DNA of 64,000 nucleotides from Planctomycetota bacterium (GTDB lineage Bacteria; Planctomycetota; Phycisphaerae; Phycisphaerales; SM1A02), in assembly GCA_016873115.1 (NCBI GenBank), contig VGYB01000003.1, forward strand, positions 1-64,000, in the 5' to 3' direction. Below the pieces are notes generated by a model, which saw only the letters and a program-made list of their open reading frames with translations, had not been told where the DNA came from and did not search any database. Positions 10,876 to 13,983 of the stretch are shown here, in pieces. Positions within the stretch are counted from its first letter, which is position 1; each line of letters starts with the position of its first letter. The translations under genes and the position numbers were made by a program.

Positions 10876-12126
10876 TCATGCAAGATCGGTCGGTGCGACG
10901 ATCGATCGGCAGAGTCCGTCGCGCCATGACGCGCCGCAACGACGCGCAAGCAGTGCATTGACCTGGTCGAGGCTGACGCCACGCAGATCGGAGGTGAGTT
11001 CATCGAGCGAACGCAGTCGCCCATAGGTGAACCAGTCGCTGGCCAAGGCCATGGCGCGGGCCGATGTGCTTTCCTCACTCATGACCATGCGGCTGAGGAT
11101 GCCGGTACGGGCACGCTCGAGCTCCTCGGCATCGATGCCCCGCTCAAGGCGCTCGAGTTCGCGCAGGATGCAGTCCAGGGTCTCTTGTGCCCGCTCGGAA
11201 CGCGACCCGGCGTAGATCATGACACGACCAAGATCCCGGCCGCCGGAGTAGGAACTGCCCACGCTGTAGCACAGCCCGCGGCGTTCGCGCACTTCGTCGA
11301 AGAGCCTGCTGCTTGAGCCTCCGCCGAGGACGCGGGTGGCAAGCCGCATGGCGTGGCGATCCTCATCGCGCGCGCTGGGTGCATCGAGCGAGAGCGCCAT
11401 GTGGGTCTGGGAGGTCGGCATCACCTCGATGTGGCGCGTCGAGCGCGGTGATTGGCCCGGGACCATCGTGGTCGAGGATCCGGCCCACCCAGCGAGCGCT
11501 TGGTCAAGCACGGCACAGGCCGCGTCATGATCCACATCACCGGCAAGACCGATCAGCGTGCCGCCCGGAGTGCAGCGACGATGCCAAGCTGCGTGCAGTC
11601 CATCGGCGGTCAGCGCTCGAATGCCCTCCGGCGTACCCAGCCCCGACCGGTTGAAGGGCGCGGGCATGCTGATCCGCAGGAGGTGCTGTGTGCATAACTG
11701 TTGTGGTTCGTCGCGGATTGCAGCGATGGCCTGCAATCCAAGGGCCTTCGCTTGTTCGACACCATCAGGATCCATGCGTGGCGATCGCACCATCTCCCCC
11801 AGGCACGCCAGCATGTCGTTCGCCTTGGGACCCGTGGTCACGGCCGACAGGTTCACATGGTGCATCGAGGCTGCGGTGTTGCGCTGCACTCCCAGGACAT
11901 CGAGTCGCCGGGCCAACTCCTCACTCGTACTGCGTTCAGTGCCACGAAGGAGCATCTCGGCGCACATCGCGCTCTCTCCCTCTCCGGCTGCGCCGTCTGG
12001 ATCGCCCGAGGTACCGACGGGCGAAAGCCATGCGACACTGACGCTCGACATCGACGGCATGTGCTCGGAGAGCAGCCAGGCCCCACAGGTCAACCGGGTC
12101 GATCGGAGCGGTTTGGTCAGCGTCAT
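10876..12126 (-). CDS. M16 (insulinase/pitrilysin) family protein lacking the zinc motif
   Basis: A 416-residue protein with the two-lobed M16 architecture: a first lobe starting with VAWLSPVGTSGDPDG and a second lobe with the conserved RGLCYSVGSSYSGGRDLG segment (the Arg/Tyr pair that helps bind substrate). Where active members have HxxEH, this one reads ESAMCAEMLLRGT, so the zinc ligands are gone. Bacterial M16B enzymes often pair an active and an inactive chain, like the two mitochondrial processing peptidase subunits. A plausible active partner is encoded at 21970-23196, about 9 kb away. ATG 12126 overlaps the dapB stop (ATGA). Confidence 0.85.
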   Translation of the reverse strand: MTLTKPLRSTRLTCGAWLLSEHMPSMSSVSVAWLSPVGTSGDPDGAAGEGESAMCAEMLLRGTERSTSEELARRLDVLGVQRNTAASMHHVNLSAVTTGPKANDMLACLGEMVRSPRMDPDGVEQAKALGLQAIAAIRDEPQQLCTQHLLRISMPAPFNRSGLGTPEGIRALTADGLHAAWHRRCTPGGTLIGLAGDVDHDAACAVLDQALAGWAGSSTTMVPGQSPRSTRHIEVMPTSQTHMALSLDAPSARDEDRHAMRLATRVLGGGSSSRLFDEVRERRGLCYSVGSSYSGGRDLGRVMIYAGSRSERAQETLDCILRELERLERGIDAEELERARTGILSRMVMSEESTSARAMALASDWFTYGRLRSLDELTSDLRGVSLDQVNALLARRCGASWRDGLCRSIVAPTDLA

Positions 12127-12848
12127 GTCCTTGCTCCGGCCTGGTGACCAAGACGATGGTCGAGCCAGTCATCCATGGTCACCAGGCCGCTGGGCCGGCC
12201 ATGAAGCCAGTGCGCCAGGCGCAACGCGCCGATCGCGAAGAGCTGGCGACCGATGGCATCATGCTCGATGCGGATCATCTCGAATGGTCCCGCAAACTGC
12301 ACGGAGTGTGTACCGATCGTGTCACCCGCACGGATGCTGTGGATGCGTGACGGTGGCACCGGAATCCCCGACCCGGCGCTGACTGCGTCGGCCAGGGTCA
12401 GCGCGGTACCGGACGGAGCGTCGGCCTTGCGGTGGTGGTGGTGCTCGATGAGGTCGACCGCATACTCCGATCCGAGCAGGCGAGCGGCGTCACGGCAGAG
12501 CCGACGCGCCACCGCGACGCCCAAGGAGGTGTTTGGGGCGACCATCACGCAGATTTTTTTTGCGGCCCCCAGCACGGCCTCCCGAGCCTCGTCGTCAAGC
12601 CCCGTCGTGCAGGAAAGCAGCGCCGCTCCGTGTTCGGTCGCCAGGTGCGACGCTCGGATCGCGCCACGAGCGCTGCTGAAGTCGATCACACAGTCGATCG
12701 CTGCAACTGCTTGCGAATCAACGGTTTTTGTATCCATCTCCAGGACCGTCCGGCACCGCAATGATGGATCCGTCGCTGCTTCGATGACCGCGCGACCCAT
12801 TCGGCCGGATGCTCCGACGATGGCGATGTTGGTCATGGTGTGTGTCAT
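12123..12848 (-). CDS. dapB: 4-hydroxy-tetrahydrodipicolinate reductase
   Basis: A 241-residue DapB. It has the Rossmann nucleotide motif VGASGRMG (about 11-18), the CTTGL strand end near 80, and the substrate site EHHHHRKADAPSGTA at about 135-149 with the catalytic His and Lys. DapB reduces hydroxy-tetrahydrodipicolinate with NAD(P)H in the lysine and diaminopimelate pathway, cytoplasmic. No other dap gene is in the window. It is the first gene of a minus-strand pair with the M16-like gene (ATGA overlap). Its upstream region contains a 27-base interrupted palindrome that could be a control site. ATG at 12836 (MTNIAIVG) is an alternative start. Confidence 0.95.
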   Translation of the reverse strand: MTHTMTNIAIVGASGRMGRAVIEAATDPSLRCRTVLEMDTKTVDSQAVAAIDCVIDFSSARGAIRASHLATEHGAALLSCTTGLDDEAREAVLGAAKKICVMVAPNTSLGVAVARRLCRDAARLLGSEYAVDLIEHHHHRKADAPSGTALTLADAVSAGSGIPVPPSRIHSIRAGDTIGTHSVQFAGPFEMIRIEHDAIGRQLFAIGALRLAHWLHGRPSGLVTMDDWLDHRLGHQAGART

Positions 12849-12885
12849 GGATCGCGTCGGCGGTGAGTCGTGTCAAGGCCCCTGC

Positions 12886-12912
12886 TGACCCAAAATCAAA
12901 GATTTTGGATCA
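12886..12912. promoter_or_regulatory. Interrupted palindrome in the dapB / Lys-Ala mini-gene divergent region
   Basis: TGACCCAAAATC (12886-12897) and GATTTTGGATCA (12901-12912) form 12-bp arms with one mismatch around AAA. The arms are AT-rich in a GC-rich region and lie 38 bases upstream of the dapB start. There is no T tract, so an operator for divergent transcription is more likely than a terminator. Confidence 0.45.
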
Positions 12913-13026
12913 AGCCCCTTTCCAACTCCCGTCGATAACGGTACAACATGTGTGGTCACCGAGGTAACGCTGCGCGCCTCGACTGACTCTCCGACCCGAA
13001 GCGTGGCCAACATGGAGCCCATCACC

Positions 13027-13086
13027 ATGGCTAAGAAGAAGGCTAAGAAGAAGGCCGCGAAGAAGTCCGCCAAGAAGTCGAAGTGA
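13027..13086 (+). CDS. 19-residue Lys/Ala-rich peptide gene
   Basis: ATG 13027 to TGA 13086 encodes MAKKKAKKKAAKKSAKKSK: 11 Lys, 5 Ala, 2 Ser and the Met. The sequence resembles the tail of histone H1-like bacterial DNA-binding proteins but has nothing else. An in-frame ATG at 13012 would add MEPIT. A strong terminator (13108-13146) follows after 21 bases, and dapB diverges upstream, so this is a self-contained transcription unit. That isolation, plus the absence of any longer frame, argues that it is real and not the remnant of a larger gene. A role in nucleic-acid binding is inferred only from charge. Confidence 0.55.
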   Translation: MAKKKAKKKAAKKSAKKSK

Positions 13087-13107
13087 TTCGGCGGTAGGCC
13101 AAGCAAG

Positions 13108-13146
13108 ACACCAAGGGCCGGCCATGAGCCGGCTCTCGGTGTTTTT
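13108..13146 (+). terminator. Rho-independent terminator after the Lys/Ala mini-gene
   Basis: A 15-base arm (13108-13122, GGGCCGGC core) pairs with 13128-13142 around the loop CATGA, with one mismatch and one G-T pair, and is followed at once by five T (13142-13146). It lies between the mini-gene and the ferredoxin gene, and it rules out ferredoxin starts upstream of 13146. Confidence 0.88.
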
Positions 13147-13186
13147 GGGCGCATTACACTTCGGCCCGCCCGCACCACCAACGCCC

Positions 13187-13447
13187 ATGCCGCATGTCAT
13201 TGCTGAACCGTGCATCGCCACCAAGGACGCCAGCTGCGTCGAGGTCTGTCCTGTCGATTGCATCCACCCCACCAAGGGCGAGGGCTCGTTCGCCGGAGCT
13301 ACGCAGCTCTACATCGATCCGGCCACCTGCATTGACTGCGGACTGTGTGTGGATGAGTGCCCGGTCCGGGCCATCTTCCCCCAGGACGACCTGCCCGAGG
13401 AATGGAAGAAGTACATCCAGATCAACGCGGATCACTACACGAAGTGA
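13187..13447 (+). CDS. Ferredoxin, 7Fe/8Fe type
   Basis: An 86-residue ferredoxin with two iron-sulfur motifs: an N-terminal C-ATKDAS-C-VEV-CPVDC set (about 9-21), where the irregular spacing resembles the [3Fe-4S]/[4Fe-4S] FdxA family, and a regular CIDCGLCVDECP set near 48-59. It acts as a cytoplasmic electron carrier; the partner is unknown. ATG 13187 was chosen because an upstream frame start at 13124 falls inside the terminator hairpin. TACACT at 13155-13160 may be its -10 box. A hairpin follows in the convergent gap. Confidence 0.9.
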   Translation: MPHVIAEPCIATKDASCVEVCPVDCIHPTKGEGSFAGATQLYIDPATCIDCGLCVDECPVRAIFPQDDLPEEWKKYIQINADHYTK

Positions 13448-13501
13448 TCGGGGCCGACTTGATCGGTACCCGTCGCCACATGGCTCGCTGGGTGGCTGAT
13501 G

Positions 13502-13544: not shown

Positions 13545-13937
13545 TCACTCGTCGTCGGGCGCTTCCTTGTTCACGCCGCTGGAGGCATCAGGCCGCTCGG
13601 TCCAGTCCTCGCAGCGCCCCGCGAGGTTGATCTCACTGGGCATGGTCTTGCGATAGCCGAGCTTGCGGGCGACTTCGAGCACATCGGTCCAACTCGGGAA
13701 AGGCTTGCCATTGACGCGCTTGAACGCATCGATGGCCATGAGCCACATGTACTGTTCGCGGCTCATCTCGCCCTCTTCGGCGCTGCGGATGAAGTCGGTG
13801 AGTCGGCGGCCGGGACCACGGCGGCGCTCCAGGTTGGTCGGTGACGCCGGTGCGGCGTCGCGGCGATCCTCGCCACCGCGTCGCTCCTTCATTCCGTAGC
13901 TGGGCTCAGGCTTGGCTGGGTCGTACGGGTCGCTCAT
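13545..13937 (-). CDS. Conserved-looking protein of unknown function
   Basis: A 130-residue protein. The first 60 residues are charged and low-complexity (KERRGGEDRRDAAP). The rest is helical, with a distinctive core, MSREQYMWLMAIDAFKRVNG, then FPSWTDVLEVARKLGYRKT. That core reads like a planctomycete protein of unknown function, but no domain name can be assigned with confidence. The helix-turn-like VLEVARKLGYRK might bind nucleic acid; that is speculation. ATG 13937 is supported by GGAGG nine bases upstream. It diverges from the membrane-protein gene at 14001 over 63 bases. Confidence 0.7.
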   Translation of the reverse strand: MSDPYDPAKPEPSYGMKERRGGEDRRDAAPASPTNLERRRGPGRRLTDFIRSAEEGEMSREQYMWLMAIDAFKRVNGKPFPSWTDVLEVARKLGYRKTMPSEINLAGRCEDWTERPDASSGVNKEAPDDE

Positions 13938-13983
13938 GGCGTGGTCCTCCGCGCCGGACGGATCCGCGCGCATCCCTACACTC

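Follow-up and report, generated by a model that had tools for sequence, protein, structure and literature searches.

Comparison with related genomes indicates that the 19-codon lysine/alanine reading frame beside dapB in the window (the whole stretch of 64,000 nucleotides that was analysed, part of a 2.36-Mb genome) is a real gene and no stray ORF, that its 5' leader is a conserved H-type pseudoknot situated just 5' of the Shine-Dalgarno site, and that the 19-residue peptide marks the lower length limit of a family of proteins resembling histone tails which extends across the order. A first-pass annotation of this DNA had described a 19-codon ORF with 11 Lys codons, a strong terminator and a 27-base palindrome by dapB, all of which are present in the sequence, and its proposal of a real, separate transcription unit is supported by the conservation of the reading frame in relatives. 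The unit itself thus stood, whereas the pseudoknot leader and the place of the 19 residues at the short end of a family had been overlooked. The mini-gene, read on the + strand and divergent from dapB, belongs to a compact self-contained unit consisting of a promoter, a 5'-terminal H-type pseudoknot, a Shine-Dalgarno sequence, a tiny Lys/Ala ORF and a terminator, and conservation is seen in the unit as a whole, in its frame and in both interleaved helices. The features are as follows:

12123-12848, - strand: dapB, the divergent neighbour, with DapB_N and DapB_C matches
12886-12912, no strand: 27-base interrupted palindrome TGAcCCAAAATC-AAA-GATTTTGGaTCA, flanked by the promoters of dapB and of the mini-gene
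12919-12947, + strand: promoter-like TTTCCA - 17 nt - TACAAC, by eye and conservation
12954-12964, + strand: pseudoknot stem S1, 5' strand GGTCACCGAGG (S1 in the genus, p = 0.017-0.023, two members shown)
12969-12975, + strand: pseudoknot stem S2, 5' strand GCTGCGC, in the S1 loop, by the S2 pairing count
12977-12988, + strand: pseudoknot stem S1, 3' strand CCTCGACTGACT, by the S1 shuffle test
12989-12994, + strand: invariant single-stranded CTCCGA separating S1 from the 3' strand of S2, by its presence in the R1 loci (see below)
13001-13007, + strand: pseudoknot stem S2, 3' strand GCGTGGC, by the S2 pairing count
13014-13017, + strand: Shine-Dalgarno GGAG, 10 nt 5' of the mini-gene ATG
13027-13086, + strand: mini-gene MAKKKAKKKAAKKSAKKSK, by its frame and family conservation
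About 13108-13146, + strand: intrinsic terminator, a long G+C-rich stem followed by T5, by scan and fold
13188-13447, + strand: ferredoxin-like protein with two Cys clusters, downstream of the terminator

The mini-gene runs from the ATG at 13027 to the TGA at 13084-13086. A second in-frame ATG at 13012 precedes the Shine-Dalgarno sequence and is CTG in the same-genus locus L008, and 13027 is therefore the likelier start. When a 341-bp query around the unit was compared with 61 genomes, all eight same-genus genomes matched over nearly the full length at 86-88% identity, while the remaining matches mostly span the Lys/Ala repeat alone and are not evidence by themselves. In the realigned sequences the start, the stop position and the terminator are common to nine of nine same-genus genomes (own included), with ORFs of 60, 63 or 72 nt (19, 20 or 23 aa) that differ by whole-codon indels only; these lengths come entirely from metagenome assemblies, where the assembly process may have shortened or lengthened K/A repeats. 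An unconserved frame in close relatives had been named by the first-pass annotation as the result that would speak against the gene; instead the frame is kept in 9/9 same-genus genomes and, more widely, a Lys/Ala(/Arg/Thr)-rich ORF stands behind a CTCCGA leader at 120 of 124 loci in 43 genus-level groups, a count in which the presence of CTCCGA was required. The other four loci (L215, L217, L218 and L219) carry no CTCCGA-plus-Lys/Ala unit. In the same-genus genome G005 (the L008 CDS) Cys takes the place of two Ala (MAKKKACKKACKK...). A small upstream ORF (MCGHRGNA..) was rejected as a gene, since its ATG is missing in L004 and its replacements fall at first codon positions.

Within other genera, equal-length pairs of mini-genes show changes at codon positions 1/2/3 of 10/0/65 (g47), 15/13/48 (g58) and 48/38/117 (g56), a third-position excess in each case, and of 17/14/20 in g25, where the excess is weak. 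The replacements in g47, g58 and g56 are of the A/T/S/V/G/K/R type only. The changes in the window's own genus are few (22/12/6) and show no third-position excess, with more non-synonymous than synonymous differences (22 vs 6), so that the counts there leave the frame unsupported; in the aligned own-genus sequences it is the in-frame indels, not the synonymous/non-synonymous counts, that argue for it. The codon counts bear on the idea that the functional product is a short structured RNA whose ORF is vestigial, which would agree with the strong conservation of the leader, with the unit's own terminator and with one genome where the ORF has 7 aa. We find this idea quite improbable in view of the third-position bias, the restricted replacements and the ORFs of the same composition of up to 172 aa behind the same leader. 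In the genome with the 7-residue ORF (L026:1543-1566, G062) the leader and terminator are intact around MAAKKKK, which reflects either true repeat shrinkage or assembly collapse.

Lys/Ala ORFs between dapB and a ferredoxin-like gene were first noticed in five genera of the window's family. With a covariance model of the leader, R1, which contains helix S2 only, matches at E <= 0.1 were obtained in 101 of the 181 family genomes, and 92 of the 100 R1 matches that were followed start a Lys/Ala-rich ORF (92 genomes, 17 genera); the eight matches without such an ORF (L145-L152) were dropped before further counts. The R1 matches from other families (seven read; L146-L148, L150-L152) and the weak L149 are weak, and none of them starts a Lys/Ala ORF; the R1-positive genomes G149, G151, G152, G161, G197 and G199 and the weak G107 and G108 stand outside the locus reading. 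In 16 of 28 R1-negative family genomes dapB was matched, and at all 16 of these dapB loci a divergent Lys/Arg/Ala-rich ORF of 28-172 aa was found with CTCCGA in its leader. A pattern search of 392 genomes from the phylum gave 19 matches, 12 of them leader plus Lys/Ala units, six from the window's family and the other six spread over three further families of its order; the remaining seven are unrelated, one (L172) being the Lys/Ala-rich start of a larger protein. Within the limit set by that pattern, the genomes searched thus place the unit in one planctomycete order only. There is one strong copy of the leader unit per genome, including one in the window's own genome. Complete family ORFs have 7-172 aa, mostly 16-60 aa, and several small-genome genera retain ORFs of 16-23 aa; groups with larger genomes tend to have a higher median ORF length (Spearman 0.42, p 0.009, 38 groups, with rounded genome sizes and kinship uncorrected). 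A search of the open-access literature by title and abstract found no description of the mini-gene or of the leader. The leader is an uncatalogued RNA, which is well supported, and the product is similar to H1-like proteins already described in bacteria.

Pooled over the family, the composition is K 46%, A 24%, T 12% and R 11%. A histone-H1-tail-like protein, as had been suggested in the first-pass annotation, is the best reading of the mini-gene product, which may then bind nucleic acid, because the longer orthologues found at this position (up to 172 aa) combine an Hc2/H1-like composition with weak matches to the Hc2 and H1 models, all under threshold. In a scan of five members with the HC2 model PF07382 the best score was 19.5 bits (172 aa, E 0.0012), below the gathering score of 40 bits; a 59-aa member reached 10.5 bits and three other members gave no match. 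Three members were compared with NF038053, the Burkholderiales histone H1-like DNA-binding protein, and one match was obtained (172 aa, 25.6 bits, E 1.3e-5), which resembles that protein in composition and differs from it in falling short of the curated cut-off of 80 bits. The family is similar to Hc2 (chlamydial hctB and the proteobacterial Hc2-like proteins) in its Lys/Ala-rich repeats, repeat-dependent length and absence of an apparent folded domain. It differs from Hc2 in being mostly 16-60 aa, in matching PF07382 below threshold or not at all and in the pseudoknot leader in front; chlamydial Hc2 has 165-237 aa and varies in length by repeat number (PMC2848022). AlgP of Pseudomonas aeruginosa offers a further likeness, both in H1-tail-like composition and in a possible polyanion-binding role: AlgP has an H1-like C-terminal tail and is connected with polyphosphate granule spacing (PMC9239181). 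There the tail is part of a larger protein with KPAA repeats, whereas the tail-like part encoded by the mini-gene stands alone. HU is also present, and the HU of the window's own genome has no Lys/Ala tail, so the Lys/Ala product would not be the sole nucleoid-type protein.

The leader is built from an S1 hairpin of 5-12 bp with variable sequence and a 7-nt arm in its loop that pairs with a downstream arm to form S2, with a pseudoknot loop 1 of 1-5 nt. All 644 S2 cells are paired (92 R1 loci, 92 genomes, 17 genera), a count that leans towards S2 because the R1 model was built on that helix alone. Nine arm combinations occur, among them GTTACGC/GCGTAAC, GCTACGC/GCGTAGC, GTTGCGC/GCGCAAC, GGTACGC/GCGTACC and GTCACGC/GCGTGAC, with compensatory changes of U-A to C-G and G-C and of A-U to G-C, and double changes at three of the seven pairs over the 92 loci. 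In the seed alignment, made by MAFFT with no structure, 100% of 147 cells are paired vs 96% after shuffling, and pairing falls to 12-43% when the alignment is slid by 1 to 3 columns. S1 is part of no model and was tested against shuffled 3' strands, giving a Fisher p of 1.8e-15 over 17 genera, with p < 0.05 in 14 of the 17. For the R1 group there are two interleaved helices, each with covariation support; in most groups outside it the S2-like helix is weak (p < 0.05 in 9 of 41 genus-level groups, median 0.23), but CTCCGA persists together with the ribosome-binding site and the ORF. A knot-free fold of the window leader was no better than shuffles (z 0.81), which is uninformative since such a single-structure fold cannot form knots. 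In the leaders of L211-L214 (g61, g8) an upstream TCGGAG and TTCCGC are complementary respectively to CTCCGA and to GCGGAA farther downstream in L212; this would be another interleaved pairing, using CTCCGA itself.

CTCCGA (usually CTCCGAC) is present in 92/92 R1 loci. Among the 120 loci the Shine-Dalgarno sequence is GGAG in 94, GGAA in 19 and otherwise in seven. A pairing of CUCC with GGAG as an off-state was weakened as a candidate by g47 and g28, which have GGAAG with CTCCGA unchanged. Transcription of the mini-gene is predicted to start at about 12954. The promoter-like element TTTCCA/TACAAC agrees with the sigma-70 consensus at 8 of 12 positions, which is under the scan cut-off, and a sigma-70 promoter scan reported 0 promoters at the mini-gene locus. 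The element is flanked by conserved TCAAG and CGATA; CGAT..TANAA is found in 79 of 118 loci, and 49 of the 118 have the whole TCAAG-CTT-CGAT-TANAA string. S1 begins 0-12 nt (median 6) past a -10-like box, which was found in 60 of the 92 loci, and the end of S2 precedes the ATG by 15-22 nt (median 17, 92 loci).

Pseudoknot leaders acting on translation are known from the preQ1-II and SAM-II riboswitches and from the autoregulation of ribosomal proteins S4 and S15. The mini-gene leader is like these in that a pseudoknot of the H-type or a related kind immediately precedes the Shine-Dalgarno sequence, and unlike them in its loop, its gene, the absence of an Rfam match and of a known ligand: Rfam 15 gave three sub-threshold matches only (E 0.068 to 8.5) and no lysine riboswitch for window positions 12700-13500, and nothing at E <= 1 for 12 relatives. 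The leader could be a metabolite riboswitch whose invariant CUCCGA loop forms a pocket for a small ligand next to the Shine-Dalgarno sequence, as an invariant loop among changing stems, a constant spacing to the start codon and a size and geometry resembling preQ1-II and SAM-II would allow. We think this rather unlikely, since the leader precedes one gene type only (92 of 100 R1 matches, the other eight looking like chance), while one would expect a sensor of metabolites to stand, at least in some genomes, in front of other genes too, and no Rfam family matches. Alternatively the knot may do little more than protect the 5' end of a very short message, stabilising it with no switching; S1 starts close to the predicted first base, and terminators stand at the other end of the message. 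Such a role leaves the invariant CTCCGA and the fixed knot-to-ATG spacing unexplained and is in our judgement unlikely.

The mechanism we favour, and consider fairly probable, is that of an H1-tail-like polycation with a dedicated mRNA pseudoknot which sets its translation or stability. The product would be a disordered polycation like Hc2 or the tail of histone H1, serving to neutralise nucleic acids or some other polyanion, and its net charge may be the selected property, which would explain the drift from 16 to 172 aa at a stable Lys/Ala composition. The pseudoknot would begin close to the first base of the transcript and end at the border of the ribosome during initiation, positions from which it could both set translation and protect the 5' end against decay, and the knotted leader probably controls the amount of peptide made. 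Control would be exerted on the mini-gene alone, for which feedback by the product is the simplest candidate reason; alternatively a protein or ligand may read CUCCGA. Dedication to one gene favours product feedback or a gene-specific CUCCGA binder over a general metabolite sensor. It is a tentative suggestion that the leader is a true gene-specific control RNA. Equally speculative is an as yet undescribed class of gene-control RNA in which a CUCCGA-loop H-type pseudoknot serves one gene throughout one planctomycete order, this gene encoding a minimal stand-alone histone-tail-like polycation (16-23 aa in several small-genome genera) with its level held by direct feedback or by a dedicated binder.

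The mini-gene is a clear example of how a bacterial gene of less than 25 codons can encode a functional protein, and it has longer orthologues at the same place; this length series lets one ask for the minimum length of a histone-tail-like polycation. As the uncatalogued leader RNA has a single target gene, its regulator (product, protein or ligand) is directly searchable. Genes this small are usually omitted from annotation, and an order-wide small protein may have been overlooked.

The combination of a Lys/Ala-rich ORF and a terminator beside dapB recurs in relatives, where the first-pass annotation had proposed to look for the exact peptide with its terminator. A terminator lies at most 110 nt past the stop in 70 of 104 loci vs 1 of 104 after shuffling, with g47 as the main exception (3 of 17). 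At the terminator of the window's unit two overlapping terminator-like sites were found vs 0.6 expected in shuffles, and folding gives the same hairpin. Divergent dapB lies within 600 nt in 103 of the 118 loci with enough sequence, and the 15 loci with no adjoining dapB belong to the window's family (nine) and to other families (six). In 19 family genomes chosen for a missing R1 match, a missing dapB match or both, DapB_C was absent in 19/19, a check that was positive in 11 of 14 well-known control genomes. The unit is present in five to six loci (L196, L211-L214, L216) of the DapB_C-negative genera g11, g61, g8 and g14. Since the unit persists where dapB is missing, the link to dapB is old family synteny and no functional need. 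The 19 DapB_C-negative genomes come from g5, g8, g9, g11, g14, g15, g18, g22, g47 (part), g50 and g61, and would have either another diaminopimelate reductase or have lost the pathway.

These neighbourhoods also bear on the idea that a leader peptide or attenuator senses lysine and controls either dapB or the next gene, at 13188-13447, which we take from its Cys motif to encode a ferredoxin-like protein and which has no Pfam match. The 11 Lys codons, the frequent divergent dapB and the terminator between the mini-ORF and the ferredoxin-like gene would suit such a role, which the first-pass annotation had raised with respect to dapB. On the other side, dapB is on the opposite strand and is not adjoining in 15 of the 118 loci where the unit is kept; 72 of 103 loci have the ferredoxin-like gene at most 900 nt away in the same orientation, and in 31 it is farther away or absent; ORFs of over 100 aa are no leader peptides; and the unit has its own terminator, with no conserved antiterminator, lysine riboswitch or Rfam family. 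Attenuation by lysine is thus highly improbable, and we have abandoned it.

The operator-like palindrome of the first-pass annotation, TGAcCCAAAATCaaaGATTTTGGaTCA at 12886-12912, is a real palindrome with inner arms that are perfect over 8 bp. The arms are conserved in nine of nine same-genus genomes and the centre is variable. As a regulon operator it was rejected: allowing one mismatch, its own genome contains this single site (reversed control 0), and hence no regulon is seen. Outside the genus its place is taken by other A+T-rich sequence, and the palindrome is not needed there. On the far side of the unit, a 142-aa protein at 13545-13973 (- strand) has no Pfam match and shows 63-92% identity in relatives, where it often adjoins the leader/mini-gene unit.
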